Virus record (IMG/VR): IMGVR_UViG_3300032163_000002
Location: 62,001 to 126,000 of that record
DNA length: 64,000 nucleotides
Strand: one strand, 5' to 3'
Source: a virus
The notes below the pieces were generated by a model. It was not told the origin of the DNA. It searched no databases and was given only the letters and a program-made list of their open reading frames with translations. The position numbers and the translations under genes were made by a program. Every line of letters starts with the position of its first letter. Position 1 is the first letter of the stretch. This document shows, piece by piece, positions 37,927-61,818 of this stretch.

Positions 37927-38586
37927 GTGGCATCCTTCCTGCCTCCGGACGAAGACGAAGAGGAGCTGCTTGAGGCCGACATCGACTTAGAAGAATTTCG
38001 TGTCAACACCCAGCATACGATTTATGACCTGATTCTTCGGTGGGTGCAGGAGGCGAGCGCATCCGTTAGAAGTCTGGCGGAAGCCCGAGAGACTCTCATG
38101 GACGCCACGGTATACGGAGACTACCGTTCAATCAAACTCGCAGCAGATAGCCTCGGAAAAACTTTGGAAGCAGCTATTGAGCAGCTTCTTGCCATTGCCG
38201 GACAATTTGATTCTCCGCTTCAAATTAAATCTGCTCTCGCCGAACGTGAAAGTGGTGAGAAAAAATCGAGCCCCATTGTGGATGCTTTGTTCAAGCTCGA
38301 TGGAACGGCACGAGAACATCTACGTGTTGCTTTTCTGACCCTTCTGCGTGACGCTCAAAAATTACAAGATCCTGTCACCGTAACAGTGCTACCAGAACCG
38401 GAGAAACTTGGTGAACAAAGTACATCCGTCACTGACAGCGCTACCGCTGCTCCTGACAAAAAGGTTAACCGACGCACAAGCCGAAGCGTTAGAAACAGGC
38501 TGCGAATCCTACGCAAAAAGTCCTCAGTTAAACGTAGTACTCCATTATATTTACGGACTCTTCGTAAACTGTCAAAGCGACGCTGA
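37927..38586 (+). CDS. First gene of late operon; possible small terminase
   Basis: 219 residues from GTG 37927. Acidic N-terminus, helical body, then a very basic tail (NRRTSRSVRNRLRILRKK). It stands directly before the large terminase, the usual place of the small subunit, and the basic end could bind DNA. No HTH is obvious. Its last 176 nt overlap terL in another frame, and the unusual tail composition may simply reflect that overlap. Probably leaderless; AAGG also stands 7 nt before the GTG. Confidence 0.6.
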   Translation: MASFLPPDEDEEELLEADIDLEEFRVNTQHTIYDLILRWVQEASASVRSLAEARETLMDATVYGDYRSIKLAADSLGKTLEAAIEQLLAIAGQFDSPLQIKSALAERESGEKKSSPIVDALFKLDGTAREHLRVAFLTLLRDAQKLQDPVTVTVLPEPEKLGEQSTSVTDSATAAPDKKVNRRTSRSVRNRLRILRKKSSVKRSTPLYLRTLRKLSKRR

Positions 38587-41500
38587 ATTTCTACTTTTAC
38601 AACAAGTTCTCATGGAATTTGTGGTTCACCACAACATTGAAGGACTAGTACGACTTTGGAAAGATGAATTCATTGACGGTGTTCCACCTGTAGACGCTAG
38701 TAAATTTCTCGAAGATCCTTACTTTCTAGGTGAATTTGGAAAATCCCTTTATCCTGTATGGAAAAAAGACCTTCTTTACGTTCTCAATCCAATCAATAAC
38801 ATTGAAGAGTGGGCTCTTGTAGGCGCGCAAGGTTCTGGAAAATCGACCGCGGCCCTCGTTGGGCAGACCTATAAACTCTATTGGCTGTCTCGGCTGAAAA
38901 ACCCGCAAAAATACTTCTTTCTCGACCCGACCACAAACATCTATTTCGGGTTCTTTACGTTGAATAGGGAAAAAGCCGAAGATATCCTTTACAGTAAATT
39001 TCATGCCATCTTGGAACAATCCAGCTATTTCAAGGATCGGTTCCCGATGCGCAAACGCCGTGTTGGCGGAATCAAGGTCTCGAAGAATATACAAGATCAG
39101 ACAACGGAAGGCTCTGACTGGAATTACGAATTGCTTTTTCCAAAAGGTGTACACATCGTTTCAGGATCGCAAACCTCCCACGCCCTTTCCATTGATCTGA
39201 TGAGCGTCGTACTTGACGAAATGAACTGGCGGCGAAAAAAAACTCTTCGCCCTGAAGAAGACATAAACTCTGCTCTCACACTTTATGAGCAAGTTCGTAC
39301 ACGTATCTCCTCGCGCTTCATGACACAAGGTGTAAAACCGGGACTCTTGACTGTCATCTCTTCAAAACGCGCCACGACAGACTTCATGGATTCACTTGTG
39401 GCTCGAATGAAAAAGGAGCCATATCGTTGTTATATTTCAGATTATGCTCTATGGGAAGCCAAACCAGACAGAATTTATTCAGGGAAAAAATTCTACGTCT
39501 TCGTCGGGGGCTCTCAAACCAAGAGCCATATCATCGACGACACACATCTCCATGAGTACGATGTATCCCTGAAAAATGTTTACGCTATTCCCGTCGAATA
39601 CCGTGCTGAATTTGACATGAGCTTGACCACAGCTCTACACGACATCGCAGGTATTTCAACTGTACCTCATGAACTTCTTTTTGATAAAGAAGAACATTTA
39701 ACGCAATGCATTGACCTAACCCGAACTTCTCCTTTTACACAAGATGTCATTGAACTTGGCCTTTCCTCTCCTTACTCCCTCAACAAATTTTTCAAGCAAG
39801 CCGAATTCACTCACCACGACGGTTTCAAACTCAAGCCGAAATACTGGCCGGAGTCAGAAAGGTACATTCATATAGACCTTTCAAAGACAAAAAACGCCAC
39901 AGGAATAACAATGCTATGTCCGTACAAAGTCGGACGAATGGTTATACCCGTTCCCGGAGGATCACCGGTCGTTACTCTTGTTCCGCTTGTCTGGATTGAT
40001 CTCATGATGCGTCTCGTGGCTCCAAAGGAAGATCAAATTGATTATGACAAAATCAGAGAGTTCGTTCAATATCTTCGGAATTGCGGATTCCGTATCGTAA
40101 ATGTTTCCTACGATACTTACCAATGCTTAGCCGCTGGAACACTCGTGAACACATCCAGAGGACTTATTCCCATTGAAAAAGCAAAAATTGGAGACCTCGT
40201 CGCCTCTAGAATAGGTCCGCGTCCAGTACAGAAAACATGGTCATTCGGTGAACACAGCACAATTAAAATCACCATGAAAGATGGAGACACTCTCGAAGGT
40301 ACAGAAAAGCATTGTATTGAAGTTCGTACAGCATGGGCGCAGGGGAAAGATAGGCGCGTAGTCTCTAAATGGAAATGGAAACGTCTGGATGAAATCAAAT
40401 TAGGAGATGTGGTTCATCTCGTGGAAGAAGCCGTACCATTAAACACAAGAAAAAATACAATACTGTGCGGCAGTAAACTCAACTTCGGATGGAGACGCGG
40501 TGCTGGTAGAAAAAGCAAAGCGGACACTTGGGAATTTCCAAAACGAATGACGCCTGAACTAGCAGAAGTACTAGGGCTTTTGTGGGGGGATGGAAATATC
40601 TCTGAAGACAGCTTGCGCCTTACAGTTACTCCAAATGAAGCTCCTAATGCCCGTCGTGTATTCCGTGCATTATTCGGGTTCTCTCCAAAATACAGAGCGC
40701 GTAAATCTACCCACGGTGTCATATCCGTTTCTGGTAGATGGATAACAAGATGGATGAAAAAGAACGGGTTACTGAAGCCTCTGATTCCGGAAGCCATTCT
40801 CACAAGCAGTCGAGAAGTTCAGGCCGCATTTATTCAAGGTTTATTCGCAACCGATGGCTCTGTTAATAAAAACACAGGGCAGGTGAGTTTTTCCACCAAG
40901 CATCTCAAGCTGGCCGAGCAAGTAATGATCCTTCTCCGCACAGAATTCGGCCTCGCCTGTCATCTAACAAAAATACAGCGCGGGCATAAAGGGGATTACC
41001 TACAAGAAGGCATTCAGTATGTTGTTTTAGTTCGAGGAAGTCGCAACGCATTCATCAGTCAGATCGGGTTCAGTTACACTAAAAAAACCCGCGATCTAGC
41101 TCTGCACAACAACAGACCGGGACGTAGAATTTTTTCTCGCATCGCTAAAATTGAATCTTCCAGAGCAAGAGTATTCGACCTTCAGGTAGAAGGCGATCCG
41201 TCTTATACGGCTAATGGCTTCGTGTCACATAACAGTGCTGATAGTATTCAGTTGCTCTCAAAAATGGGCTTCAACACATCAAATATTTCTGTAGAAGCCG
41301 ACCTTCCTTATCTCAATCTACGCACAGCATTTGCACAAAAGCGCATTAACTGGTATCGGTACGATCCGGCTATCGAAGAATTAAAAGCCCTGATTCACGA
41401 TCTTGAAAAAGACAATGTTGATCATCCAGACATGGACCCTTTCGGAGGTCCGGGAAGAAAAGACATAGCTGATTCCATTTGTGGTGCCTATACAGCGTTA

Positions 41501-41773
41501 GCACGAGCTATCGCAACGAAAAAAGTCAGCACTGCCAGTCCAACAGCCATTAATCTCGGACAGATCCGCCCGAAAGAACCGGCTGTTGTAGACGCAAGTG
41601 TGGTTGAATTTTTCAGGGGAGTTATACCTGTAGTTCCAGATTCCGTAACTGGTCATCGAACAGACCGCTTTATCACGGAAGACTATCAGGAATACCCAAA
41701 GAATGCCACGATAGAAGAAGTGTTGAAGGAGGAAAAAGAAGATGAGAAAAAAGAAATACTTAAGCCCGGATGA
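38411..41773 (+). CDS. terL: Terminase large subunit with intein
   Basis: 1120 residues from GTG 38411 (GGAG 7 nt upstream). ATPase: Walker A GAQGSGKSTAAL at ~145, Walker B LMSVVLDEMNW. Nuclease domain: HIDLSKTKNATG, then VNVSYDTYQ. Here the chain is broken by an intein (residues 572-941) starting CLAAGTLVNT and ending GFVSHN. The extein resumes with SADSIQLL, so splicing rebuilds DTYQSADSIQ, a conserved block of the nuclease domain. The mature protein is about 750 residues. It packages DNA into proheads through the portal encoded next. Enzyme activity before splicing is unlikely. Confidence 0.93.
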   Translation: MNKVHPSLTALPLLLTKRLTDAQAEALETGCESYAKSPQLNVVLHYIYGLFVNCQSDAEFLLLQQVLMEFVVHHNIEGLVRLWKDEFIDGVPPVDASKFLEDPYFLGEFGKSLYPVWKKDLLYVLNPINNIEEWALVGAQGSGKSTAALVGQTYKLYWLSRLKNPQKYFFLDPTTNIYFGFFTLNREKAEDILYSKFHAILEQSSYFKDRFPMRKRRVGGIKVSKNIQDQTTEGSDWNYELLFPKGVHIVSGSQTSHALSIDLMSVVLDEMNWRRKKTLRPEEDINSALTLYEQVRTRISSRFMTQGVKPGLLTVISSKRATTDFMDSLVARMKKEPYRCYISDYALWEAKPDRIYSGKKFYVFVGGSQTKSHIIDDTHLHEYDVSLKNVYAIPVEYRAEFDMSLTTALHDIAGISTVPHELLFDKEEHLTQCIDLTRTSPFTQDVIELGLSSPYSLNKFFKQAEFTHHDGFKLKPKYWPESERYIHIDLSKTKNATGITMLCPYKVGRMVIPVPGGSPVVTLVPLVWIDLMMRLVAPKEDQIDYDKIREFVQYLRNCGFRIVNVSYDTYQCLAAGTLVNTSRGLIPIEKAKIGDLVASRIGPRPVQKTWSFGEHSTIKITMKDGDTLEGTEKHCIEVRTAWAQGKDRRVVSKWKWKRLDEIKLGDVVHLVEEAVPLNTRKNTILCGSKLNFGWRRGAGRKSKADTWEFPKRMTPELAEVLGLLWGDGNISEDSLRLTVTPNEAPNARRVFRALFGFSPKYRARKSTHGVISVSGRWITRWMKKNGLLKPLIPEAILTSSREVQAAFIQGLFATDGSVNKNTGQVSFSTKHLKLAEQVMILLRTEFGLACHLTKIQRGHKGDYLQEGIQYVVLVRGSRNAFISQIGFSYTKKTRDLALHNNRPGRRIFSRIAKIESSRARVFDLQVEGDPSYTANGFVSHNSADSIQLLSKMGFNTSNISVEADLPYLNLRTAFAQKRINWYRYDPAIEELKALIHDLEKDNVDHPDMDPFGGPGRKDIADSICGAYTALARAIATKKVSTASPTAINLGQIRPKEPAVVDASVVEFFRGVIPVVPDSVTGHRTDRFITEDYQEYPKNATIEEVLKEEKEDEKKEILKPG
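40124..41233 (+). other. Intein in terminase, LAGLIDADG type (370 residues)
   Basis: Begins with Cys (CLAAGTLVNTSRGLIPI), block B EGTEKHCIEV, ends VSHN before Ser. Two dodecapeptide motifs, EVLGLLWGDGNI and IQGLFATDGSV, mark a homing endonuclease with both acidic residues present, so it may be active. Inserted in an essential conserved motif, as usual for homing inteins. Confidence 0.93.
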
Positions 41774-41808
41774 AAAAAGGACTATCCTATTGAGGAGAAC
41801 TTCATCAC

Positions 41809-44748
41809 ATGGCTAGAATTGCTGAAGACAGAATTATTCCTTTGAGTCAGCTTAATCGGGTGCAAAAAGCCCTCATTAGAATCTTCGGCATTGACAGGTG
41901 GATTTTCGGGCGCAAAGCCATCACCAAGACGGGCGGCGGAGATCCAGAAGCAGTACGCCAAGAACAGATGTCCCTTCTCATGGGGGAATTCTCAGCCTAT
42001 ACGCAGTTAAGCAATGACAGACACGTAAAATACGCAGACTATGACGCGATGGACGAAGGTAGCCCTGAAGTTGCTTCTGTCCTCTCTCTCTACGCACAAG
42101 AAGCTTCTCCGGAAGACTTGCACACGCGTAAGGTGATATGGGTGACGGCAAAAGAAAAGGATCTTGAAAAAACCCTGAACCGACTGATACGAGAACTGAA
42201 TCTCGAAGAGCGCGCGTGGGGCACAATTCGAAATCTGGCAAAATATGGTGATTGCTTTTTGCTCAATTTATTTGCCGAAGGAAAAGGGGAAGGTACAGCA
42301 CACGAAAAGAACAAGACATATCTACGTTCTTTACAATATATTTATCCCGGTCGTGTTAAACGTATTGAAGCTGATACATTGCTTGGGTATGTTTCAGAAG
42401 ACCTTGCCACAATTATTCCTCCTGATGACGACGAACATAATATGTATGCTCCGTGGGTTTTCTGTTACGATGCTGAGACGGAAGTTCTTACATCTCGTGG
42501 CTGGCTACATTTCAAGGATCTTGAAAAAACCGACATGATAGCTACTCGAAACCTTCGAACAAAGCAATTCGAATGGCAAAAACCTACAGAATACGTCAAT
42601 CACCCGTATTCTGGTCCTATGGTTAAATTCAGTTCTAATACGGTGGATCTTCTCGTTACACCTAATCATAGAATGCTGGTTTGGATTCCCACCAACAATA
42701 AAATTGGAACTGAACGAATCATCAAGGCCGAAGATATCATAACAGACAAACACAACCGCTCTCATTTTTCAATTCCGATGACATCTTCTTGGGCGGGTAA
42801 CGAAATCAAAAATGTTACATTTAATCCGATAACTTCTCAGGTAACACGTCAAGAGCGTAACGGAAAAATAGCTACGCGCAATCAATGTAACCAGCAGCCT
42901 CTAAGTCTATCTGGAGATGATTATTGCGCGCTCATGGGAGCATGCCTTTCCGAAGGTAGCGTTGATCGTAAAAAAGGACTGCAAATTGCACAGCGCACCA
43001 CATCAAAAGGATACACTAAATATAAAGAACTGTTCGAACGCATTAACGGGGGAAATGCTAGGCACAACGGTAAAGTGTTTTGGATTTATCGTCGTTGTTT
43101 AGTGCCTTTCTTCAATGCATTCGGATATTCTCACGAAAAGTTCATTCCTGACAACATCATGAACGCTATCCCTAGACAACTTAAAATCTTTTGGGAGTAT
43201 TACGTACTAGGTGACGGCTGGTTCACACGAGATAGAAAAACACGAAACGGAATAGACCCGGTTATGATTGCAACCAGTAGCTTCCAGATGGCAGGACAAC
43301 TTCAAGAAATCGCACAAAAATTAGGTTTTTGCGCCACCATGCGAACATTTCCAGCCAAAGACAAGATAATCAAAGGCCAGCGCACTCATATGCGCAAAAA
43401 TTACCGTATTACGCTTCGAAATACTAAAGCTGTAACTTTTAAGTCTGAAATGACTGAATACACCGGTACAATTCACTGCGCGACAGTCCCTAACGGAGTC
43501 ATGTATGTTAGGCGAAACGGTAAGCCTGCATGGTGTGGAAATACTCATGGACGACTGATGGCATACGATCAAGAAAGTATTTACGGGAGATCAATGTGCG
43601 AGGAAGTTCGAAAAATTTGGAAAATGCTGAGTATCCTTGAAACGATGGTGGCACTCGCACATGTCCAAAGGGCCATTGACCGAAATGTGTTCATGATAGA
43701 TGTGGGGACCGCATCCGAAGAGGAAGCTCTTGCTCTCGTAAAAAAATACAAACAGTGGCTTCGTCGAAAGGAATTTTTCGATCCTCAGACGAATCAATTC
43801 AAAAATGACTTCAACCCTACCACGATCCAAGAAGATATTTTCTGGCCGACTCGTCCCAATTCCAATTCACGAGTTGATACACTTCAAGGAAAAACAGTAC
43901 CACAAGGACTCGTAGATGATCTGAATTACTTTCGCAATAAGCTCTGTGGAGGGCTAGGTGTTCCGCGTGAATACCTCGACGGTACAACACAAGGTTCAGT
44001 CTTCGACTCAAAAGCTGCTCTCGTTCTACAAGATATTCATTTCGCCCGAAAAATCGAACGGCTTCAACGAAGCTTTCGCCAGATGATTCATCGTATCTGT
44101 CAAGTTCATCTTGCTCTTGATGGTGTAATAACAAACGAATTTGAAATACGCATGGCTCCACTTTCTCTTATTAGCGATAGGCTCAATGAAGACTTGTGGC
44201 AACGACGTGCAGAAGTTCTTGGAGTGTTGACTCTGCTTGCTACACAAATGGGTTGGCCGCAAGATGTTTGGAATATTTATCTCACAAAAAATTTCATTCG
44301 AGACATTCCAAGTGACATATTGGAAAAACTAATCGAAGGTATCAAAAAAATGGTGCCGCCAGAAGGACTCCCACAAGATGTGAGCACATCGGGAGAAACC
44401 GGAAACGGCGAGAAAGGGGGAAAATCCAGCGGACCCCCAATGACTCACAACCCAAAGAATCCACTCTCACCTGATGTTCCGAAAAAAATACCTCATGCTG
44501 ATTTCCCTCTTACCCCGAAAAACCTTTTCAAAGATGCATTCGGAAAGATAGCAGCAGATAGCTTGGAAGAATCTCTTTATGAAAGCTACGGCGAAACAGA
44601 AACACTCGAACGGCTAAAAAGAGACCTCTCAAAAATGAAGCGGGGCATCATTGAAAAATATCCAGAACTTGAAAATATGGCAAAAGCTGCGGAAAAAGAA
44701 CTAGATGAAGACGAGAAGAAAGAGTCGAATGAAGATGAGGAGGAGTAA
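41809..44748 (+). CDS. Portal protein with intein
   Basis: 979 residues. GAGGAG precedes the ATG. The extein (about 619 residues) has a T4-gp20-like layout: AKYGDCFLLNLF, YIYPGRVKRIE, HGRLMAYDQESIYGRSMCEE, and DVGTASEEEALALVKKYK. The intein occupies residues 219-578, between APWVF and THGRLMAY. The portal forms the dodecameric ring at one vertex for packaging and tail joining. C-terminus acidic and disordered. Followed by the HU-like gene in a TAATG overlap. Confidence 0.88.
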   Translation: MARIAEDRIIPLSQLNRVQKALIRIFGIDRWIFGRKAITKTGGGDPEAVRQEQMSLLMGEFSAYTQLSNDRHVKYADYDAMDEGSPEVASVLSLYAQEASPEDLHTRKVIWVTAKEKDLEKTLNRLIRELNLEERAWGTIRNLAKYGDCFLLNLFAEGKGEGTAHEKNKTYLRSLQYIYPGRVKRIEADTLLGYVSEDLATIIPPDDDEHNMYAPWVFCYDAETEVLTSRGWLHFKDLEKTDMIATRNLRTKQFEWQKPTEYVNHPYSGPMVKFSSNTVDLLVTPNHRMLVWIPTNNKIGTERIIKAEDIITDKHNRSHFSIPMTSSWAGNEIKNVTFNPITSQVTRQERNGKIATRNQCNQQPLSLSGDDYCALMGACLSEGSVDRKKGLQIAQRTTSKGYTKYKELFERINGGNARHNGKVFWIYRRCLVPFFNAFGYSHEKFIPDNIMNAIPRQLKIFWEYYVLGDGWFTRDRKTRNGIDPVMIATSSFQMAGQLQEIAQKLGFCATMRTFPAKDKIIKGQRTHMRKNYRITLRNTKAVTFKSEMTEYTGTIHCATVPNGVMYVRRNGKPAWCGNTHGRLMAYDQESIYGRSMCEEVRKIWKMLSILETMVALAHVQRAIDRNVFMIDVGTASEEEALALVKKYKQWLRRKEFFDPQTNQFKNDFNPTTIQEDIFWPTRPNSNSRVDTLQGKTVPQGLVDDLNYFRNKLCGGLGVPREYLDGTTQGSVFDSKAALVLQDIHFARKIERLQRSFRQMIHRICQVHLALDGVITNEFEIRMAPLSLISDRLNEDLWQRRAEVLGVLTLLATQMGWPQDVWNIYLTKNFIRDIPSDILEKLIEGIKKMVPPEGLPQDVSTSGETGNGEKGGKSSGPPMTHNPKNPLSPDVPKKIPHADFPLTPKNLFKDAFGKIAADSLEESLYESYGETETLERLKRDLSKMKRGIIEKYPELENMAKAAEKELDEDEKKESNEDEEE
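42463..43542 (+). other. Intein in portal, LAGLIDADG type (360 residues)
   Basis: Begins CYDAETEVLTSRGWLHF, block B LVTPNHRMLV, ends PAWCGN before Thr. The penultimate residue is Gly rather than the usual His, so the last splicing step may be slower or need another residue. Endonuclease motifs ALMGACLSEGSV and YYVLGDGWF are present. Confidence 0.92.
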
Positions 44749-45122
44749 TGACCGGAATACCTTCTCCTCAAACTCTTCTCGCCAAACGCACTGTTGAAAA
44801 ATTACGAAATACCTTGCTTCCGAGTGCTGCACCTTACGAACCTGACTGGAATATGGCAATGATCCAGCGAGTTCTCGGTGCCCTTGGAGAAGTTATTCTC
44901 GATGCCGTTTCTCACGGAGAAGAAGTTCAGCTTGGGCGACTCGGTTCTTTTTTTCCGAAAGTTTTTGATGAACGAATTGTTGCTTCCAATTTACAAGGTG
45001 GCGAGAAAAAAGTAATCCCAAAGCGTATACATCTCGGCTTCGATGCTACTACAAGCGCAGAAACACGCGTGCAAGAGTTCAGCAAATTTCTCAATGAATT
45101 CGATAAGCGGAAAACAAGTTGA
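44748..45122 (+). CDS. HU/IHF-like protein in the head operon
   Basis: 124 residues. LGALGEVILDAVSHGEEVQL then GRLGSFFPK, and after a basic segment KKVIPKRIHLGF: this follows the HU order of helix, GxxVxLxxFG-type turn, beta arm and final helix, extended at both ends. HU-like proteins bend or coat DNA. Its position between portal and head morphogenesis genes suggests a role in packaging or a virion component; a fold resembling HU without DNA binding is also possible. Confidence 0.5.
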   Translation: MTGIPSPQTLLAKRTVEKLRNTLLPSAAPYEPDWNMAMIQRVLGALGEVILDAVSHGEEVQLGRLGSFFPKVFDERIVASNLQGGEKKVIPKRIHLGFDATTSAETRVQEFSKFLNEFDKRKTS

Positions 45123-47176
45123 TGAAAACTCCTGTGGATCTCTTCGCCGAAGCCACACTGTATGAAGCACTGGTGGGCGCCATGATTTACGAATCCAAAT
45201 ATTTTCCGACACACGGACACGTTAGACACGCGCCTTCTTCCAGAAATAGAATACGAACGCAACTTCATACGTATGACGCGCTGGCAAACTACGATCAATG
45301 GAAAAATGCCAAACGTTATCAGGCAGGTGTAGTGAAAGCTGCCTTCGACCGAGTAAAATCAGATTTCAAAAGAGCACTACTTGACGCTACGCAGGGTTAC
45401 AGAGCAAAAAAATACAATGCCAACGAAATGAAGGTGCTATCAAAAGTTGCTTTCGATAATGCTTATACGAGTGCTTACGCTCTTGGTCTACGCGCAGCAG
45501 GGCTAACCCGTCTAAGCATGGGGCAAAAAACAGCCACCTCTGGCCCGACAATGGACCCACACGACAAAGAATGGCTGAAAAGCTCAGTAGCGCATGAACG
45601 CCGGTACTGGAATGAATTCGTAAGCTCCATCATTTCGGGAAGCATTGACGCTAAATGGCGTGCTTTCACGATGGAACAGCGTGTAGAATTTTATGTGCGT
45701 ACACTCGACCACGTATATGAAACTGCCCGAGTCGTAGGACATCCTGTTCACACAATTTTTTACTGGACCCTGCACCCAGCAGAACACTGTATCGCTGAAT
45801 CAGCATGGCTCGTGACCGATCAAGGGCTTCTTACCATGAAAGAAGCAGCTAAAACAATGCAATGCCGCGTTGCCACTGGAATGACAAACGGGCTCGGCAA
45901 TATTAGAAAAGTAATTTCAAAAGGTCATCAGCCAGTCCTGTGTATCACGACACATCTTGGCTATCACCTCGAAGGTACGAATGAGCACCGTATTGTGATT
46001 TATGATGTAGCAACAAAAAATCTTGCGTGGAAAACACTCGGTCAAATTAAACGTGGGGATCTACTTGTCATGACACGCGGACAATTCGACCGTTACGGAG
46101 CAGGCCGCCACATTGATCCGGAAATTGCAGAGCTTCTTGGGTTTATCGAAGGAAACGGTTACTACTGGCACGAAAAACACGCCACACGAAAAACTCCAAG
46201 GCAAATACTTGGATACCTTTTAGATCGTCGAGACATGGATCTTTGGACTCGTTACAACGACGCTCTTTTACGAAACGGTATGGAAACCTTCAGAGCCAAC
46301 AACTATTCTGGTTCTAATCATGTCTTAAATATTCGGACAGGAAAACTCAGCACAATAAAGACCCTTCGTTTACTCGGAGCCAAATCAGGATTTTCCGAAG
46401 TCATCAGGGCATTCTCCCCCGATTCATTAGCTGCGTATCTACGTGGACTTTTTGAAGCTGATGGTTCGTGTGGTAGGAGAAAAACCGACACAAAACTAAT
46501 TTCGATTAGCGTCTGTTTTTCCTCTGCAAAGGAAACATTCATTCGAGACATTCAGATGGCCCTCTTCTCCCTTGGCATTTTAAGTCGTATTTACAAACAA
46601 ACAGGAAACACAAACTTCAAGCAAAACCGAACTCTGTGGACCCTGAAGATTCTCGGAGGAGCTAATCTCGTTCGATTCATCGAACGTATCAATTTCGCCA
46701 GTCGAAGAAAGCGTCTTCAACTCAGAGAAGTCCACGAAAAAGAGACCAGAGGTGATACATTCCCGGTTCATGAAAAGAAACGTGCATCAGTTGGTCAGCT
46801 TATTGAAATGAACGTCAAAAACCACAAAATTCAAGAGTGGCTGACATCCGACATTCATTTTGCTAGAGCCGTAACACTGAAAAAGCTTAAGCCACGCGAA
46901 GTCTATGACGTACTTGACAGCTCAACACATACTTTTTCGGCCAATGGTTTTCTCGTGCATAATTGCGATGGCTGTATCATGTTAGCAGATAATTCTCCTT
47001 ACACACGCGAAACACTTCCTGCCGTACCACGTTCAGGAGCTACACAGTGCCTTGCAAACTGTAAATGTGAACTTCGTGTCGTGACCCCTTCCAATACAAA
47101 TCAATGGGATCAAATCAGGAAACAAGGAAATCGAAATATCCTTCTTGCAAAATTAAAGTCCCTCAAACGTAGATGA
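45122..47176 (+). CDS. Head morphogenesis protein (SPP1 gp7-like) with intein
   Basis: 684 residues from ATG 45122 (TGATG overlap). Extein about 292 residues: helical N-terminal domain, then WTLHPAEH and, after the intein, CDGCIMLADNSPYTRE followed by QCLANCKCEL. These blocks are characteristic of the minor head protein family (gp7/Mu gpF). The intein covers residues 223-614 and splits the CxxC motif from its preceding His. Gp7-type proteins are internal minor head proteins involved in DNA delivery. Confidence 0.88.
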   Translation: MKTPVDLFAEATLYEALVGAMIYESKYFPTHGHVRHAPSSRNRIRTQLHTYDALANYDQWKNAKRYQAGVVKAAFDRVKSDFKRALLDATQGYRAKKYNANEMKVLSKVAFDNAYTSAYALGLRAAGLTRLSMGQKTATSGPTMDPHDKEWLKSSVAHERRYWNEFVSSIISGSIDAKWRAFTMEQRVEFYVRTLDHVYETARVVGHPVHTIFYWTLHPAEHCIAESAWLVTDQGLLTMKEAAKTMQCRVATGMTNGLGNIRKVISKGHQPVLCITTHLGYHLEGTNEHRIVIYDVATKNLAWKTLGQIKRGDLLVMTRGQFDRYGAGRHIDPEIAELLGFIEGNGYYWHEKHATRKTPRQILGYLLDRRDMDLWTRYNDALLRNGMETFRANNYSGSNHVLNIRTGKLSTIKTLRLLGAKSGFSEVIRAFSPDSLAAYLRGLFEADGSCGRRKTDTKLISISVCFSSAKETFIRDIQMALFSLGILSRIYKQTGNTNFKQNRTLWTLKILGGANLVRFIERINFASRRKRLQLREVHEKETRGDTFPVHEKKRASVGQLIEMNVKNHKIQEWLTSDIHFARAVTLKKLKPREVYDVLDSSTHTFSANGFLVHNCDGCIMLADNSPYTRETLPAVPRSGATQCLANCKCELRVVTPSNTNQWDQIRKQGNRNILLAKLKSLKRR
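45788..46963 (+). other. Intein in head morphogenesis protein, LAGLIDADG type (392 residues)
   Basis: Begins CIAESAWLVTDQGLLTM, block B EGTNEHRIVI, ends NGFLVHN before Cys. Motifs LLGFIEGNGYY (Asn after Gly) and LRGLFEADGSC. Inserted in front of the conserved CDGC of the extein. Confidence 0.92.
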
Positions 47177-47907
47177 ACTATCTTCATGAGGATCTCATGA
47201 AGAAACCACTGAACGAAACATTACTTCCTCCCGCCGTAGAAATAATCACGATAATCCCCCTAAAAACCACCGACAAATTCCTCGGCGGAAAACCTGAATA
47301 TGACGCAGACATAAAATGGAGTCCTGTAACCGCAGAAGCTTTTAGGAATTCCTTCCATGAATACAGCCCCGAATACCCTCTCATCGCGCAATTCATTGAT
47401 GCCGCGATGCAGCAACCTGAAGCTGTCTTCGGTTTTCGAGCTGGAGACGTGGATCTTCCTATCCTGCTTTCCTTCCGTCCCGCCAAAGGTGGGCTATGCA
47501 TAGGAACCGCAAGTCCAGACTGGTTCTCCTCGGCAGGCCCGGACGCCGACGAAGACGAGGATGACCCCGGCTTCATCAGTCCCGGAACCGTTGAAAGCAC
47601 CGTTTTCCGTCTTCTCTTACCCGGTAAGAGCCCTGTTCCTGTCAAGGAGGGCTTAGGCTGGAAGATCTGTGTTCCTCGCCATAGACGGGCACAGGGCATG
47701 GCTGAGTCTATCTCTACGGCAGCCGCAGCCTACCTCGTCAGTCTCTCTCAGCGGAGCCTCACCATTCGAGAAGGAAAAGAAACCTACAGTGCCATCTTCA
47801 AATTCGAAGAAGACGCGAAAGAGTTCGCACGGATACTCGGTGCTCCTGAGCCTCTTATCGAAGATCAAGCCGAAAAAATCGCTCTTCGGCTTCTGCGAGA
47901 GGAGTGA
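47173..47907 (+). CDS. Hypothetical virion-operon protein
   Basis: 244 residues from ATG 47173, which overlaps the previous stop; ATG 47197 (codon 9) has an AGGA ribosome site and may be the true start. A central acidic loop (DADEDEDDPG) separates two alpha/beta parts. Not recognised; probably a head or decoration-associated protein from position. Confidence 0.7.
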   Translation: MNYLHEDLMKKPLNETLLPPAVEIITIIPLKTTDKFLGGKPEYDADIKWSPVTAEAFRNSFHEYSPEYPLIAQFIDAAMQQPEAVFGFRAGDVDLPILLSFRPAKGGLCIGTASPDWFSSAGPDADEDEDDPGFISPGTVESTVFRLLLPGKSPVPVKEGLGWKICVPRHRRAQGMAESISTAAAAYLVSLSQRSLTIREGKETYSAIFKFEEDAKEFARILGAPEPLIEDQAEKIALRLLREE

Positions 47908-47910
47908 ACC

Positions 47911-50632: not shown

Positions 50633-50950
50633 TTAAACATTTCCAATTTCATCAAAAAGTAGTTGTTTCAGTTCTCGGTAAGCACTTAATTTTCCCTCAA
50701 AATAAAGATCCATGTACGAAGAGCTACCTTCGTGAAGTTTAACGTGTTCTTTGATGATTTCTTCTACAATGCTTTTGAAAAGAATAAGACCTTCGCGGCG
50801 GCTATCCATTGTAAGAATTTCAACTATACGAATTAGTTTTTCACGTTCTGGAAACCGATCAAGTTCATATTGCATCAACTGACGGACACGGTCCCGAACT
50901 TGTCGGGCCGTATCCGCCAAAGGACGCTGCTGCGTCGCTACGACACTCAT
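50633..50950 (-). CDS. Hypothetical protein
   Basis: 105 residues, entirely helical (QVRDRVRQLMQYELDRFPER). TAATG overlap with the NHL fibre gene, so it is co-translated with it; it might be a chaperone or partner of that fibre. Confidence 0.6.
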   Translation of the reverse strand: MSVVATQQRPLADTARQVRDRVRQLMQYELDRFPEREKLIRIVEILTMDSRREGLILFKSIVEEIIKEHVKLHEGSSSYMDLYFEGKLSAYRELKQLLFDEIGNV

Positions 50951-53900
50951 TATACCGTCAGGAGAAAGTCGTCCATGTCTCCGTGATGCCTAAGCATTGG
51001 ATGTCCTATAGGGCGATAAAGCTCAACAACATCGCTGATATTTTCTCCAAGCTCATTCGTCAAGGTAGTCGTGTAACACTGTACACGAACCGCCAGAAGA
51101 ATTTCACCTTCCACCGTCACAAGATAAGGTGTTGCCACATATCGGTAGCTCGGCGCCGATGCACACGAAAATGAAGCCACTGTCGGTCCAGCAGCATTAT
51201 AGGGCATAATGAGCCCCATCGGGCCGGGTACATATACAATACTACGAAAGCCCCCTCTAACTCCCGCGTCTGCTACAGCCCGAGATACATAAGAAAGTAG
51301 TGAACTATCCTGCCAAAACGATGCATTTTCCTGCTTAAGTGTTCCACGGAAATTAGACACAGTGTTTAGAATCAGAGTGTAATAATGTGCCCGAGAAGTC
51401 ATCAGGTTTCCGCTTAAAGCAAATTCCACAGGTCTAACTGCGCGCTCATCAAATCCAGAAAGAGGAATAGGAAGCCGCTGAATACAATTCGCGTAACTGA
51501 TGACACCCGGATCATTGAACAAATTTTCACTTGTTCCCTGCCCCAACGTTGTGATAAGCATTTTTTGGGGGGCCATCAATATATTTTTTCCGGCCAACCG
51601 AGGATAAAGCGTTTTCGCGTCCGAGAAATTCATTGTAGTTGTTGGCTTTCCTCGTTGATAAACGCCTTGATAGGGCGTAAATCGGAAATGACCATACCAC
51701 ATCGAGCTTACTTCGGGAGGCACAAGAAATTCTGTTCGACTTACATTTGGTTCGACATAAGCACAATGCTGATCTAAAATAAGAATACGCCCGTTATTGT
51801 GATCACAGATGAAAATATATCGAGTATCTACTGCGATACCTGTCGGACGCATCCACGAAGCCTTATCGTTGCTTCCTGTACCTGCAACACCCGCTTTACC
51901 TGTGAAGTAATAATCTGCTGCACTGACACAGGCAAGCTGATTCGTGCTAGCATCAGACCAGAAAATATTACCACCAACAACTTTAGTAACACTGAAAAAG
52001 TCATTTCCTCCAAACTCCGGGGCATATCCGGCCAAAGTAAGCGGAACATAAACAGTCGCATAAGAACTAGCATTTGCGTCTACATAAACCGGCGTATCAC
52101 GATTTGACCCAGCAACGTTTACTTCAAATGGTCCGTTGTTATCCTGACACCAAAGCTTGCCTGTACCAGTTGTAAGGGCATAACTGCGCCCGGAAAGCAT
52201 GGTAGGAAAAACTTGAATACGAGCGTGGGTCCACTGCGCAGAATAACATCCGGACGAACCACTCGTATTGAAATTTCCATTATCCTTGAGAATCATCATA
52301 CGTTGGTTGGCAGTATCTCCAACATAAATTCGTCCACTGGCATCTGTAGCCGTAGCAACCATGACTCTAAGTTGTCCGGTCAGTGTTTTTCCACCAGCAT
52401 TAACAAAATTCAAATGGTACGTATCATTACCGGGTGTCGAAGTATACCCGAACCTACCTACATAGGTCATCGTCGCACCAGTCGTGTTCAACTTGATGAC
52501 AGTATTATTGTCGGTAATGTAAAGCCCGGAACCATCATCAGCCAAACCCATCCCCTGACCATAAGGAGTAATGTGCAAAAGTCGAGTGTTATCGTAACTT
52601 GATGAAAGCCACGCTACCCAAATATTTCGTCCCTTTGTACCAGAATATTGAATCCATTGATCGCCAAAGCTGTCTGCGAACGTCCACGTATCCGGGTCAG
52701 TATTTGTAGCTGACCATTTTTCAACACGCTGGCGTTCACCCGCCTCATAATCCGAATCTATGTATCCACTACATCCAACGTAAAGATAATGATTTATAGA
52801 ATCAAATTCCACACTCGCAGGACGAAGCCCCGGATAAGAAATTCCCCACGGGGCTAAATCCTTAAACATAGTTGAGTCTTTTGTCCGCCAAGATTGAATC
52901 GGTCCATAAGGAGTCATCGCTCCCGAACCCGGTGCCGGGCTACTATACCTTACTTGATACAGCGACAAGTCACTCATCTTGATGGAAACAATTCGATTTT
53001 GACGCGCACCGAGTACGACGAGACCTGATTGCGTCATATCCAGAGCGTCGTGTCCTTCATTTGATTCGAAAATATGAACTGCATCATTCGGTTCATCTAA
53101 TGCAAAGTCCACTGCAAATGTTAATCCATTTTTCGTTCCCGCGTTTATTCCACCCCAACGACCACCCGTATCCCATGCGGCTCCGTACCGCGCAAGATAC
53201 CCCCAAGTGCTATCATATTTTGTAAAAACATAACCACCATGCCCACCGGGCAAATCCGCATTTCCGTTACTCGTGAGCGTATATTTATTTCCAGATGAAT
53301 CTTCACGATATCTTGGACTGGTTTTCCACGGATCAACGGCTTGAACTGATGCTGTCTTTGCCGCCGGAATCGAATAGCCGTTTTGAAGAAATACTGTTGG
53401 CAACATTGACGTTACATTCATGACTATGATACGGCTGCGGTCAGCCACGTACAAGTAACTATCATCCCCAAAGAATGAGTGACGCGGAAAGACACAGTGC
53501 CCATTATCCGGCATCGACACCCCTACAACTCCGAAAGCAGAGGTATAGCTAAATCCGGACGAAACTTTCATAATTCGGTAATTCAAAGTGTCAGAAATAT
53601 AAATGTTGCCAGAGCCATCCACTGCTACACCTTGAGGTGTATTCAAGTGACTAGTATCCGTACCCGGTGTACCGGTTGTTCCAAACTGCCCTTGATAGAC
53701 CATCGACGAGTTCAATTTAACTATCCGGTGATTACTGGCATCCGCTATGTAGACGTTTCCTGATCCATCAAGAAAAATTGCCGCAGGAGCATTGAGGTGA
53801 GTATTATCGGCTCCAGAAGTGGCATAAACACCAAATGACGCTGAAATAGCCAGCGTTGAACGGTTGACTTTCCATGCTTTATGTGCAAGACGATCACACA

Positions 53901-55875
53901 CATAAAAATAAGTAGCGTCTACTGCAATACCAGTAGGTGCAAGAAATTGATCTGTTCCTATGTAAATTACGCTTTGTACTGAAGCCGCAGACGCCGATGG
54001 ATTCGTGTAAGTTTGTCCGACGATTGATTTGTTGGCTTTATTAAACCCCACAACAGGCGGGAAAGAAACTTTTATCAACCCGACAATGGTGCCCGTGGCT
54101 GAATAGTTGGCATCTCCTGTGTTTAATGTTGCAGTAAGAGTAGACGCACCAAGAGTCGCCCAAGCCACAGAAAGTGCCACCGGCTTTTTAGATCCGCTCC
54201 ACCAAAGAAGCGGAGCTTCAAACATGGCCGTTCCAGCATTTCCCACTGTTTGTCCGGATGATTTCAAGGTAATAACTGCGTCAGCAACAGACGCAAAATT
54301 CGTGGGCGTTCCCGTGGTAGATTGAAGATTGATTGTAAACCCGACAACTTGTATTTCTGCCTGCGCACTATAAAGCCGCTGAAAGGCATTCGGAATCATT
54401 CGATTCGCGCCAGTGTCCACCAACTGCCACGTTTTTGACTGTGCAGACGCTGCAAGTGAATACGCACCAACAATTCCCGATCCGCCAACCGCTTCGTTTG
54501 TTCCAGCAATCGTATCCTCAACATAATACTGACCATAATCCAGATACCCATGTCGAGTTTTCAATTCACCTCGCAAAAGCCGGTCAAATGATTCCTCCAA
54601 AATTCGGTTCAAATTCGTCCGTTCAGATACGACAGACGGAGCAATAAACACGAGATCATTAGGTTCAATTTTATCATGGAAGAAACCATCAGGTCGTGCG
54701 GAATCCCCTGTAACCCATGTTCCAGTACCTCCAGAAGTCTTTGTACCATTCTGATTCGAAATCGTCCATTGCCCGGTATTTCTACGAAAAACAAGAGCCA
54801 CAGGAATCGCATATACGTAACCATCAATGGTATTCAATTCTGTCTTCGAAGTACCATCACCACTACCAGCCATCCAAAGAGAGGGGTCTCCTTTCGTGTC
54901 CTGCGCAGCAATAAAGACGTTCCGCGCCGTCGGAGAACCGGGTACAGAGCTATTACCCCCCTGTGCGAGCACATTTGCTTGATCTGACATTCCCATCGGG
55001 TTATAGTCTGGTGAAGCCACTGGCGAAACACGCAGCCGATGACGTACCTGAAAGTAATCTCCGTTATTGCCGCCCCAAAATCCAACATTACCTTGCAAGG
55101 TTGAATCATCAGGTGAAGTAATAACAGCAGCTTGTGAGCCCACAGCACCGTAAGCATAGAAGCTGGGGCCACTACGCGCGACATTCTGAAACCAAACCTC
55201 AATCCAAAGCAAATCTACTCTACTATTTGCAGCCGGCGCAGCAGGGAGATTCCAACAAATTTCATTGGTAATCCCAAAAGTGCTTGCCCCTCCCGCTTCA
55301 TTAAACAAAGTAACGAGCACGCCCCCGACGTTCACATAAATAGGACGGTAAGCCAGAAAATCTCTTGCGCCTGTACCGCCATTCATCCGCATGTTGTTCC
55401 CGTTCCCGAGATATACCTTATTCGTTCCTTTTGTAACATCCTCATCTCGCAAATAAATTTGTCCAAATACTGACAAAGAAGATGTACCTGCAAGAGGAAC
55501 AGGAACGGTTCCAACGCCAAGCGATGCAGAAATGTCGCTCGTCTTTAATACATCCGTAATCGGAAAAAGCACCCCGGAAGCATACCGTGCTTGCCACGAT
55601 TGCGCTCGTGCCATGAATTCAGCGAAGGCAATCTGCTTTTGTGGGTAGCCTGCCGCGAGTTCAAGATCATCGAGCCGTGCATCAAGTGAAGCGTAGGTCT
55701 GCTGAAGCCCTGTGCGTGCCTGTATGACCTCCGCTGTCGTCGCTTCTAATTCAGTATTCAGCGCGATGTCATTAAGAATTAAATTCCGAAGTGGTCTGTT
55801 ATCGACATCAAATCTGTAAATATCCGATGAGGTAAAAAGCTGTACGTCTGAGTCACTTGTCAATATAGTTGCCAT
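50950..55875 (-). CDS. Giant NHL-repeat tail/receptor-binding protein
   Basis: 1641 residues, the longest gene in the window. The N-terminus (~1-110) begins MATILTSDSDVQLFTSSDIY and has a coiled coil, likely the baseplate-binding part. The middle and end contain NHL beta-propeller blades such as APTGIAVDATYFYVCDR, AAIFLDGSGNVYIADASNHR, TPQGVAVDGSGNIYISDTLN and MRPTGIAVDTRYIFICDHNN. NHL propellers bind sugars or proteins, so a host-recognition role is likely. GGGAGAG precedes ATG 55875. Confidence 0.75.
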   Translation of the reverse strand: MATILTSDSDVQLFTSSDIYRFDVDNRPLRNLILNDIALNTELEATTAEVIQARTGLQQTYASLDARLDDLELAAGYPQKQIAFAEFMARAQSWQARYASGVLFPITDVLKTSDISASLGVGTVPVPLAGTSSLSVFGQIYLRDEDVTKGTNKVYLGNGNNMRMNGGTGARDFLAYRPIYVNVGGVLVTLFNEAGGASTFGITNEICWNLPAAPAANSRVDLLWIEVWFQNVARSGPSFYAYGAVGSQAAVITSPDDSTLQGNVGFWGGNNGDYFQVRHRLRVSPVASPDYNPMGMSDQANVLAQGGNSSVPGSPTARNVFIAAQDTKGDPSLWMAGSGDGTSKTELNTIDGYVYAIPVALVFRRNTGQWTISNQNGTKTSGGTGTWVTGDSARPDGFFHDKIEPNDLVFIAPSVVSERTNLNRILEESFDRLLRGELKTRHGYLDYGQYYVEDTIAGTNEAVGGSGIVGAYSLAASAQSKTWQLVDTGANRMIPNAFQRLYSAQAEIQVVGFTINLQSTTGTPTNFASVADAVITLKSSGQTVGNAGTAMFEAPLLWWSGSKKPVALSVAWATLGASTLTATLNTGDANYSATGTIVGLIKVSFPPVVGFNKANKSIVGQTYTNPSASAASVQSVIYIGTDQFLAPTGIAVDATYFYVCDRLAHKAWKVNRSTLAISASFGVYATSGADNTHLNAPAAIFLDGSGNVYIADASNHRIVKLNSSMVYQGQFGTTGTPGTDTSHLNTPQGVAVDGSGNIYISDTLNYRIMKVSSGFSYTSAFGVVGVSMPDNGHCVFPRHSFFGDDSYLYVADRSRIIVMNVTSMLPTVFLQNGYSIPAAKTASVQAVDPWKTSPRYREDSSGNKYTLTSNGNADLPGGHGGYVFTKYDSTWGYLARYGAAWDTGGRWGGINAGTKNGLTFAVDFALDEPNDAVHIFESNEGHDALDMTQSGLVVLGARQNRIVSIKMSDLSLYQVRYSSPAPGSGAMTPYGPIQSWRTKDSTMFKDLAPWGISYPGLRPASVEFDSINHYLYVGCSGYIDSDYEAGERQRVEKWSATNTDPDTWTFADSFGDQWIQYSGTKGRNIWVAWLSSSYDNTRLLHITPYGQGMGLADDGSGLYITDNNTVIKLNTTGATMTYVGRFGYTSTPGNDTYHLNFVNAGGKTLTGQLRVMVATATDASGRIYVGDTANQRMMILKDNGNFNTSGSSGCYSAQWTHARIQVFPTMLSGRSYALTTGTGKLWCQDNNGPFEVNVAGSNRDTPVYVDANASSYATVYVPLTLAGYAPEFGGNDFFSVTKVVGGNIFWSDASTNQLACVSAADYYFTGKAGVAGTGSNDKASWMRPTGIAVDTRYIFICDHNNGRILILDQHCAYVEPNVSRTEFLVPPEVSSMWYGHFRFTPYQGVYQRGKPTTTMNFSDAKTLYPRLAGKNILMAPQKMLITTLGQGTSENLFNDPGVISYANCIQRLPIPLSGFDERAVRPVEFALSGNLMTSRAHYYTLILNTVSNFRGTLKQENASFWQDSSLLSYVSRAVADAGVRGGFRSIVYVPGPMGLIMPYNAAGPTVASFSCASAPSYRYVATPYLVTVEGEILLAVRVQCYTTTLTNELGENISDVVELYRPIGHPMLRHHGDMDDFLLTV

Positions 55876-58390: not shown

Positions 58391-58396
58391 TACTAT

Positions 58397-60193
58397 TCAC
58401 GGCAAAGTCAAGCAAGGATTCGGCAGTGGATCAGGAACGGGTGAATCAATATTAGCAGTCGTTGTGATTCTAACGTGCTCAATGGCACTACCATCTTTAG
58501 CATCTCCAAGAATTGCCTTATTAGACTTGTCAAAATCGTTGATACGAATAAGTTTCCAGCGAGACACCGGAATATCCGCATAATCAGGTATCGTTTCTAT
58601 CCACCGATAAACGGTTTGATATATGCCTGTACCTATAATACCTCCATCATTATCATCGCTAGAACCCCCCTGCGAACCAATCGGTTGAAAATTCGTACCC
58701 CCAACAAGAATTATACCTTGTGTATACACAGACTGACTGAGCTTGACCGTCGCCCATGAAACTCCCGGTACACTGGAAATGAGTTTTGCTACGAGCGACT
58801 GCCGAGCATCCTGTCCAAATTCCACGTTGGCGTAAGAGAAATAATCCTGTACTGCCAGCTTTACATCTGCCGCGACAATTTCCGGGTCATACCGCATTCG
58901 ATCCACGGCAACGATAGCCGATATGATGATGTCTACCCATTCTGGCGCGCGAAAAACAAGACGAGTTGTAACCGGCTTTCGTTCTTCCAAGAGTGTTTGT
59001 ACGTTGGATTTAATTGTTGTATAAGCTGTGGAGTCTGATTCGACAAGATTTCCGTTAGTGTCAAGCGCCAAAAATACTACCATGACTCGATTGATAAGCT
59101 TGACGTTTGGATGCTCTTCTTCCTGTTCACCCCACGCATTTGCTTTATCGACACCGTTGATACTACGAGTAAGAGCTATGTAATCATTCTTGGACATTGC
59201 CCGAAAAAGCGCAGACAATAACGCTGGTCCATTCTGTTTCGCATTTTCAATCGTCTCAGGATCTGCGCCTCCCGAAATTGGAAGAATATTCGTAGCAATT
59301 AGCTGTACAGGAATTCCGTTCGCGTCTGTAATAACAGAAGAAACACTGGTAATAGTGCCCGCAGCTAGATTTCCTACGGAGCCTAAAGTGAGAATCGGAT
59401 AAACATAAATATTTTGGCCTAATGCTGGAATTTTCCCGAACTTTCCATCTCCAAATTGCACGTAGACATTTCCTCGTGCATCTTCACTTGACTGAAAAAC
59501 TTGATCATTTGACTCGGAAGTAAGAAACGATGAAACATTGGACCAAGAAAGCGAGGAAGCTTCCGATGAGCCAATCTTGACGATGAGCAGGTTTCGATCA
59601 ATACCTTGTATGCTTAATACGTATCGTTGATTTGCCGTACCATCTGCTGAAAAAACTTCCGGAGCAGTTATTTTTTGCCCTTGAATGACTCCAACTATCA
59701 CAGAACCCGGAGCACCCGGTTCTGACGCTGTTAAGTAAGCATCTTCCGTAGTATAAAAATCCACAGAGTCTACGTTGTCACTACGCCCGGAAAGTTGAGT
59801 TCCAGCCGGAATATAAATTGAATTCGCGTGTCCATTCACAGTTCCATATGTAGGACTACTAGCCGCTGGAGACACGGAGAGTGTAACTTGTCCTTTGGCT
59901 GCACCATACCCCAACAAATCATAATCTATAAGCTTCAACAAATTTTTGACATTAGCTCGTTGTACCGCAGTTGGAAGCTGTGTCTCAGAAAATTTCTTAT
60001 CAAGGTAAAAGAGCAACTGATCTTGCATGGCAATGAGAAGCTCAAGAACCGCAATACCAAGATCAGATTCATTTAGATCCGTCCAACGCCCGACGCTTAA
60101 TACCGGAATTCGCGCAAAAAGTTCATCTCGCAACGAGCGCCAATCTGCATTCGTATAAGAAATTTTAGCAGCAGGAGTAAGTTGTAAAGTCAT
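58397..60193 (-). CDS. Baseplate J-like protein (gp6/gpJ)
   Basis: 598 residues. Starts with DWRSLRDELFARIPVLS and DLGIAVLELLIAMQDQLLFY, then VYVQFGDGKFGKIPALGQNI, GGADPETIENAKQNGPALLS and DYIALTRSINGVDKANAWG, the J-family blocks. The J and gp6 proteins form the inner ring of the baseplate. It begins where the gp25-like gene ends. Confidence 0.87.
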   Translation of the reverse strand: MTLQLTPAAKISYTNADWRSLRDELFARIPVLSVGRWTDLNESDLGIAVLELLIAMQDQLLFYLDKKFSETQLPTAVQRANVKNLLKLIDYDLLGYGAAKGQVTLSVSPAASSPTYGTVNGHANSIYIPAGTQLSGRSDNVDSVDFYTTEDAYLTASEPGAPGSVIVGVIQGQKITAPEVFSADGTANQRYVLSIQGIDRNLLIVKIGSSEASSLSWSNVSSFLTSESNDQVFQSSEDARGNVYVQFGDGKFGKIPALGQNIYVYPILTLGSVGNLAAGTITSVSSVITDANGIPVQLIATNILPISGGADPETIENAKQNGPALLSALFRAMSKNDYIALTRSINGVDKANAWGEQEEEHPNVKLINRVMVVFLALDTNGNLVESDSTAYTTIKSNVQTLLEERKPVTTRLVFRAPEWVDIIISAIVAVDRMRYDPEIVAADVKLAVQDYFSYANVEFGQDARQSLVAKLISSVPGVSWATVKLSQSVYTQGIILVGGTNFQPIGSQGGSSDDNDGGIIGTGIYQTVYRWIETIPDYADIPVSRWKLIRINDFDKSNKAILGDAKDGSAIEHVRITTTANIDSPVPDPLPNPCLTLP

Positions 60194-61818
60194 TATGGCC
60201 TACCTTGAATAGGAAGTACCATACCCTTAGTAGAAATTCTATTTGATTCAAAACCTGTCACGCTGCTCGTCATAGACATTCCCTTGATTTCAAAAGGAAA
60301 GACGAAAGATCCCGTTTGGTGTGTCTGTACCACGTAGAAATTGATGACGATTCCAATATACTCAGGACGATTATCGTCCCTCTGGAAATAGACATTTGTG
60401 ATGGTAATACGCCGTTCCCAACGCCGCAAAGACTCGACAGTGTAATAATAAAGAAGTTGATTCGTAAACCCATCACTCGGTTCAAAAACAAGATCATAAA
60501 GCCTTGAATTATGGATGAAAACCCCAGCACTTACAGCATAATTTTCAGTCGTTGAATTTGCCAAGTCAAATACTTCGAGAACCAACCCGGTTTTTTCTAC
60601 AAAAAGAACTTTATGATTATGCCATTTATTTCCCTTCAGTATTTGTGGGGCTAACAAAGCTACTGGAATTCGACGTATCAAGGTCGCGCGACTAATCTTA
60701 AAATGCGAACATACACGCTGCACAACTTCAGTTCTATTCTCAACCCGCAAAGTAGTTGAAAATTTACGAATAACCTCTGCTGATATTGGCTTTTTGCGCA
60801 CTAATCCAAGCGTGCGTGCATAAGCCCGCCCTAAAAGACTGCGCGACCACACCCCACTTTGCCCTACTCTCCTACATACTTCTACACGATGCTCATGTGC
60901 AAGACGCTGTCGCTCTGGACTGTGCCTACGCGCGTACTCTTCAAGCCGTAACATCTCTCGACGTTCCCGCATGATTTTCCAACGCTCTGCCAAAGATGCC
61001 TTCATTTTCGAAATACGCCTCTCTTCCGAATGTGCAGAGCGTCTGTAAGCAGCCAGATTTTTCAAAGCAATAGCTCGCATTTTTTCCCGGTGCTTCGGGT
61101 CTTTCCAAAGTCGTTCCAAAGGCATTCCCGGAGTAAACATATGCTTGATATGCTGAGCATGAAGCTCAATATGTTCTTTTTTCTCCAGCGCCACAAGATT
61201 ATCCGGACTATTGTTTCGCTTACAAAAATCTTTATGATGTACGATATGTCCAACTTTTACGTTTAATACTACCCTGTGGGTAGGACACCATTTGTTCAAG
61301 TGAGAAAGATATGTTTCCTCATATCCTTTTCGATTTATCTTGCGATAAAGAGGCATTAAAGACATTCCAGTAAGAAGATTTTCAGCCGAACAATACATAC
61401 CCCCCCGTAACATGAAGGGGTGTCCAGCCGTCACCAAAATAGATTCCATGTTATCTAGCGTAACACGAAGCACTTCTTGAAATCCACGAGATACGGCACC
61501 GGGAGAGAACGCAGGAACCATTTTACCGTCCCTATTCCCGTAAACCCATACCGGAACACCTACAAGTTCTCTAATTAAACGCTCTGTGCCGTTCAAGAGT
61601 GGGATTTTCGTATCTCCTGACACGCAACCGAATTCTGGTTGCATAATACGTTCACCGGGACGGGTACGTAAAATCGTCTGAATCGAAGAGATAATTTTGT
61701 CAAGCCCGTTGGCCGTTGTGACTGCACGAACTCCTTTTCCCACAGAAAAAGAAAAAGGAGACCGCATTCCGGTTCCAATTACGTCGCGCGAGCCGAGAGG
61801 TACACCAGTAAGTGACAA
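60193..61818 (-). CDS. Baseplate wedge protein (gp25-like) with intein
   Basis: 541 residues from TTG 61818 (AGGAGAG upstream). Extein of 168 residues: TRPGERIMQPEFG, then after the intein SRLYDLVFEPSDGFTNQL. This is the gp25/W core (GER.M.P.FG..L..L.FEP). The intein fills residues 65-437. Gp25 is the sheath initiator in contractile tails and baseplate-like systems. The C-terminal ~100 residues are beta-rich. Confidence 0.88.
   Translation of the reverse strand: MSLTGVPLGSRDVIGTGMRSPFSFSVGKGVRAVTTANGLDKIISSIQTILRTRPGERIMQPEFGCVSGDTKIPLLNGTERLIRELVGVPVWVYGNRDGKMVPAFSPGAVSRGFQEVLRVTLDNMESILVTAGHPFMLRGGMYCSAENLLTGMSLMPLYRKINRKGYEETYLSHLNKWCPTHRVVLNVKVGHIVHHKDFCKRNNSPDNLVALEKKEHIELHAQHIKHMFTPGMPLERLWKDPKHREKMRAIALKNLAAYRRSAHSEERRISKMKASLAERWKIMRERREMLRLEEYARRHSPERQRLAHEHRVEVCRRVGQSGVWSRSLLGRAYARTLGLVRKKPISAEVIRKFSTTLRVENRTEVVQRVCSHFKISRATLIRRIPVALLAPQILKGNKWHNHKVLFVEKTGLVLEVFDLANSTTENYAVSAGVFIHNSRLYDLVFEPSDGFTNQLLYYYTVESLRRWERRITITNVYFQRDDNRPEYIGIVINFYVVQTHQTGSFVFPFEIKGMSMTSSVTGFESNRISTKGMVLPIQGRP
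60508..61626 (-). other. Intein in gp25-like protein, HNH type (373 residues)
   Basis: Begins CVSGDTKIPLLNGTERL, block B LVTAGHPFML, ends AGVFIHN before Ser. Unlike the other three it contains an HNH nuclease (HIVHHKDFCKRNNSPDNLVA then EHIELHAQH), followed by very basic helical repeats typical of DNA-binding modules in HNH homing enzymes, and an HTH-like VCSHFKISRATLIRR. Confidence 0.93.

Follow-up and report, generated by a model that had tools for sequence, protein, structure and literature searches.

The DNA analysed here, hereafter the window, has a GC content of 46.5% and spans 64,000 nucleotides (positions 62001-126000) within a virus record of 141,027 bases (IMGVR_UViG_3300032163_000002). 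Its packaging genes form an island on the plus strand (37927-48321), and most of the remaining window lies on the minus strand. Four intact, in-frame inteins are present, one each in the genes for the terminase large subunit (TerL), a T4-type portal protein, an unclassified protein (the third gene) and a gp25-type baseplate wedge protein (Table 1). Four separate searches of the whole 141-kb record returned these four inteins only; one of the search models had been trained partly on them, and the independent evidence comes from three public families. A search with Rfam revealed neither structured RNAs nor group I introns in the window.

Table 1. Intein-bearing genes of the window, their inteins, and window sites that are empty here and occupied in a related phage
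Feature	Position in window	Strand	Details
TerL gene, interrupted	38408..41773	+	1121 aa precursor, 751 aa spliced; start codon uncertain; PHROG terminase matches
Empty site in TerL Walker A (GAQGSGK/S)	38840..38845	+	401-aa intein here in relative L009
TerL intein, 370 aa, LAGLIDADG	40124..41233	+	site DTYQ/S, three residues past Asp569
T4-type portal gene, interrupted	41809..44748	+	979 aa precursor, 619 aa spliced; Portal_T4 E=4.9e-49 (spliced)
Portal intein, 360 aa, LAGLIDADG	42463..43542	+	non-canonical CGN/T end
Third gene, unclassified, interrupted	45119..47176	+	685 aa precursor, 293 aa spliced; after portal and a small DNA-binding-protein-like gene
Third-gene intein, 392 aa, LAGLIDADG	45788..46963	+	first motif GNG
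gp25-type wedge gene, interrupted	60193..61818	-	541 aa precursor, 168 aa spliced; GPW_gp25 E=2.4e-15 (spliced)
gp25 intein, 373 aa, HNH	60508..61626	-	site EFG/S
Empty RecA P-loop site (SEGK/T)	15454..15457	-	345-aa intein here in relative
Empty PolA site (SGAI/T)	18180..18183	-	299-aa intein here in relative
Empty AAA (MoxR-like) ATPase Walker A site (GTGK/T)	22865..22868	-	363-aa intein here in relative

All four inteins begin with Cys1, contain a block B TxxH motif (TEKH in TerL, TPNH in the portal, TNEH in the third gene, TAGH in gp25) and end with Asn, which is followed by Ser, Thr, Cys and Ser, respectively, as the +1 residue. The junctions read YDTYQ/CLAAGTLV...GFVSHN/SADS in TerL, APWVF/CYDAETEV...KPAWCGN/THGR in the portal, HPAEH/CIAESAWL...GFLVHN/CDGC in the third gene and QPEFG/CVSGDTKI...GVFIHN/SRLY in gp25. 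An earlier note on this DNA had described four complete inteins in four genes, and their positions, frames, Cys1, TxxH blocks, terminal Asn and +1 nucleophiles were all confirmed. A penultimate His precedes the terminal Asn in only three of the four; the portal sequence reads Cys-Gly-Asn rather than His-Asn. This Gly-Asn end is common to all aligned relatives of the portal intein, which are those of Lak-A1, P1201 ThyX, a mycobacteriophage methylase and a huge-phage protease.

Searches with Pfam, NCBIfam and PHROGs placed Hint/intein, LAGLIDADG_3 or HNH domains inside the four inteins. In Pfam and NCBIfam, the TerL, portal and third-gene inteins combine Hint/intein with LAGLIDADG_3, in agreement with the three LAGLIDADG endonucleases named earlier, and the fourth, in gp25, is of the HNH type (HNH_3). 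Profiles of the LAGLIDADG inteins matched solved inteins and homing endonucleases (PI-SceI, PI-PkoII, V-ATPase inteins and I-DmoI), a solved-structure profile search with the gp25 intein gave nothing significant, and AlphaFold2 run on the single sequence of the portal intein gave an unusable model (pLDDT 37). The endonuclease catalytic residues are intact in TerL (GDG, TDG), the portal (SEG, GDG) and gp25 (HNH). In the third-gene intein, the first LAGLIDADG motif carries Asn in place of Asp (GNG, not GDG), so that one catalytic acid is missing; because of this change, its endonuclease may be dead or a nickase.

The possibility that these are not real inteins but chance Hint-like matches, or products of a frameshift or of assembly, draws on two observations: the curated cut-off of the Intein_splicing model was reached by the third-gene intein alone, and the end of the portal intein is non-canonical. 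Nevertheless, independent N- and C-terminal models matched in addition to the LAGLIDADG and HNH models, no stop codon interrupts the approximately 370 codons of each intein, and a related phage (see below) carries exact empty alleles as well as same-site alleles that are 47-49% identical. We thus give an artefact almost no credence.

Removal of the inteins in silico turned the split extein matches of TerL, the portal and gp25 into continuous ones, and the spliced lengths (Table 1) match the sizes of about 750, 619, 292 and 168 residues predicted in the earlier note. Several hundred terminase records aligned with the spliced TerL extein through the splice junction, at ~30% identity over ~90% in the best ones and to Vibrio phage terminases; a solved-structure profile search with this extein gave nothing useful. 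The spliced portal covers positions 5-412 of 433 of Portal_T4 as a single stretch, and the gp25 match rose upon splicing from 40.9 to 56.5 bits, covering profile positions 3-94 of 96. Extein continuity of the third gene was judged against its homologue in the related phage only. For this gene, Pfam, PHROGs and named phages provided no significant family match or homologue, leaving its previous label of head morphogenesis protein unsupported. A profile match to the phage minor head proteins (Mu F-like) was also lacking, so a head morphogenesis identity is only a guess from gene position. AlphaFold2 on the single sequence of the relative's third protein was likewise unusable (pLDDT 35).

The claim that the insertion sites lie in conserved extein motifs held for TerL and gp25 but not for the portal. 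The TerL site ranks at the 89th percentile of conservation, next to Asp569, a probable nuclease-domain acid, and Ser, Thr or Cys is kept at the +1 position in all 82 gp25 homologues. In contrast, the portal site ranks at the 53rd percentile and is not broadly conserved; at this site, the notion of inteins as markers of the best-conserved stretches failed. No intein was present at the gp25 site in any of the 82 homologues, or at the TerL nuclease site in the best 30 terminase homologues listed.

Scans with the portal, TerL and third gene all returned the same 32.7-kb contig, IMGVR_UViG_3300021090_000077 (L009/G001), which is collinear with 14.6-47.2 kb of the window. With the gp25 intein as query, two further contigs were retrieved, L109 and L110; they are nearly identical to each other and collinear with 56-64 kb of the window, and one of them comes from the same metagenome as L009. 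Because of their equal GC (53-54%), common relatedness and shared metagenome, these contigs are probably pieces of one phage. The comparison below thus involves one relative, in pieces from two metagenomes, and is a small sample. Further scans of viral and prokaryote genome contigs yielded the same phage contigs or nothing, and the scan of viral contigs found no relatives of the portal intein.

Over the window phage and this relative there are eight insertion sites, of which two are occupied in both and six differ in occupancy. The shared sites are the TerL nuclease site, where L009 carries an allelic intein of 416 aa (49% identical), and the gp25 site, where L109 and L110 carry one of 379 aa (47% identical). 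The portal and third-gene sites are filled in the window phage only: the portal of L009 is gapless and intein-free at the exact site (YAPWNF/THGR), as is its third-gene homologue (64% identical; NPAEH/CQSC). Conversely, four sites are filled in the relative only, namely TerL Walker A, the RecA P-loop, PolA and the AAA ATPase Walker A, and the window carries the exact empty allele of each.

The window PolA (17333-19924, minus strand) is a DNA polymerase I with a match to uracil-DNA glycosylase in its N-terminal part (a UDG-PolA fusion); the intein-bearing PolA of the relative is 56% identical to it over the whole length, including the N-terminal part. At 19927-23109 (minus strand), the AAA ATPase lies beside a CobT-type VWA protein, a MoxR/VWA-like pair in a phage.

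Together, these observations make it very probable that the window holds four independently acquired, self-splicing inteins of class 1 type, kept by homing between co-infecting relatives. That the inteins splice and cut, and in which direction they were transferred, we infer. Each precursor would be translated whole, and the Hint domain would then excise the intein through an acyl shift at Cys1, transesterification to the +1 Ser, Thr or Cys and cyclization of the terminal Asn, so that a functional terminase, portal, third protein and gp25 result. Alleles of other phages that lack the intein would be cut by the endonuclease and acquire a copy of the intein upon repair. Splicing would thereby make the insertion nearly harmless, while the endonuclease would spread the intein during co-infection. 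The suggestion of strong homing pressure in the earlier note gains support from the eight sites with only two shared, from the reciprocal empty sites and from the compositionally foreign inteins of the relative.

The latter were revealed by GC content at four-fold sites, which in the relative is lower in the intein than in its own extein in all six cases, significantly so in four: the TerL nuclease-site intein (0.35 versus 0.64, p=5e-11), the TerL P-loop intein (0.40 versus 0.64, p=3e-8), the AAA ATPase intein (0.50 versus 0.69, p=2e-4) and the gp25 intein (0.41 versus 0.61, p=0.002). For RecA and PolA the difference was not significant. Because a long-shared genome should not leave one reading frame compositionally split, this points to arrival of the relative's inteins from AT-richer genomes. 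In the window, three of the four inteins match their exteins in composition and the portal intein is slightly lower, so a recent arrival is unsupported there.

It was also considered that the inteins might be long-standing residents that have kept splicing but lost mobility, and persist since precise loss is rare. The Asp-to-Asn change in the third-gene endonuclease would agree with this, as would the presence of the TerL and gp25 inteins in both lineages. Moreover, the TerL intein and extein diverge alike between the two phages (dN 0.39 and 0.43, respectively; synonymous sites are saturated, making dN/dS uninformative), which would also fit vertical inheritance at the TerL site. However, the endonuclease is about as conserved as the N-terminal Hint region in both allelic pairs (54% versus 53% identical in TerL, and 52% for the HNH region versus 56% in gp25), as expected if cutting is still selected. 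Together with the intact catalytic acids in three of the four, this implies continued selection for cutting. The differing occupancy of six of the eight sites and the foreign composition of the relative's inteins argue in the same direction, and we consider loss of mobility unlikely.

A different role was raised in the earlier note, in which splicing controls the timing of virion assembly: the packaging motor, portal and baseplate proteins would stay inactive until their inteins leave. The genes that hold the four inteins of the record do all belong to DNA packaging or the virion, or lie next to such genes; the TerL insertion is beside predicted nuclease-domain acids, so that the unspliced precursor would probably be inactive, and conditional splicing exists for some inteins (PMC5790916). 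Yet insertion beside active residues is also typical of selfish inteins, and all 82 gp25 homologues and the best 30 terminase homologues listed do without an intein at the respective site. For a checkpoint the inteins would have to be indispensable, but two of them are absent from the relative, at the same portal and third-gene sites, which argues against it; the relative's other inteins are, in addition, mostly in RecA, PolA and the AAA ATPase, the majority of them in replication and recombination genes. Assembly timing thus found no support and seems very unlikely. Both known members of the lineage carry an intein at the TerL nuclease and gp25 sites, and splicing at these two sites might have been taken over as a checkpoint for DNA packaging and baseplate assembly; we regard this as hardly probable. 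The gain and loss between the window phage and its relative support homing and lend no support to splicing-timed assembly, and the four inteins look like ordinary mobile parasites rather than an assembly-timing device.

The separate acquisition of the four inteins is indicated by their nearest annotated phage relatives, which sit in different genes: ThyX and methylase; PolA; NrdE; and the SP-15 TerL and dCTP deaminase. An origin by duplication of a single intein across the four genes was rejected, because the inteins belong to different families; among them, only those of TerL and the third gene are weakly alike (23%). The portal intein shares its family and its GN end with those of P1201 ThyX, the mycobacteriophage methylase and Lak-A1, whose hosts are enzymes or unknown, whereas its own host is a portal. 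The gp25 intein belongs to the family of the HNH intein in TerL of Bacillus phage SP-15 (SP15_022; 27% identical over the full length), which is placed near Walker A of TerL rather than in gp25. SP15_022 (SP-15 contig 11674-13293) is annotated as hypothetical and corresponds to the N-terminal part of TerL, with the HNH intein just before Walker A; the remainder is annotated separately as SP15_026, ~2.5 kb downstream.

Among tailed phages, mycobacteriophages are known to carry inteins in TerL, portal, ThyX and other genes (Kelley et al. 2016, PMC5050341), and splicing and endonuclease activity have been shown for the mycobacteriophage TerL inteins (PMC5050341). These are located in the ATPase domain, while that of the window is in the nuclease domain; the relative also has one at the ATPase P-loop. 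Unlike the window phage, the mycobacteriophage intein table (PMC5050341) holds no gp25 intein. A literature search limited to open-access papers found no published gp25 intein, and the gp25 and third-gene insertion sites appear to be unreported before. Zeta/Delta crAss-like phages have a heavy load of inteins and introns, TerL included, with no more than three inteins per genome reported and many group I introns (PMC7886860), whereas Rfam detected no intron in the window.

The earlier note had considered this many inteins in structural proteins uncommon. This is weakened by LR756508.1, an uncultured huge phage (484 kb) in which a 16-kb stretch of head genes holds at least five inteins: three in a T4-type portal, one in a prohead protease and one in the gene that follows TerL. 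The intein density of the window thus has a precedent. The window portal intein has a homologue in the protease intein of LR756508.1, and the window gp25 intein has one in the third portal intein of that phage; since the protease and portal of LR756508.1 hold relatives of two window inteins, virion-gene inteins are drawn from a shared phage pool. The two phages differ in their insertion sites, and in LR756508.1 some inteins are mini-inteins without an endonuclease and replication genes are also intein-bearing. Two of the three inteins in the LR756508.1 portal (5023-9183) are such mini-inteins (150 and 141 aa long).

The window phage and its relative thus offer a natural comparison of intein gain and loss, with eight sites, allelic pairs and reciprocal empty sites. 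The range of intein hosts thereby grows by a baseplate wedge protein of the gp25 type and a late gene of no known class, and both HNH and LAGLIDADG inteins become available together with their natural empty targets. The accepted view of intein function is unchanged.

Two further proteins were observed. A repetitive glycine-rich protein of 596 aa (62106-63896, minus strand) adjoins gp25; this protein has no Pfam match and is ~50% identical to a 774-aa protein in L109. A 1641-aa protein with NHL repeats (50950-55875, minus strand) lies among the tail genes.
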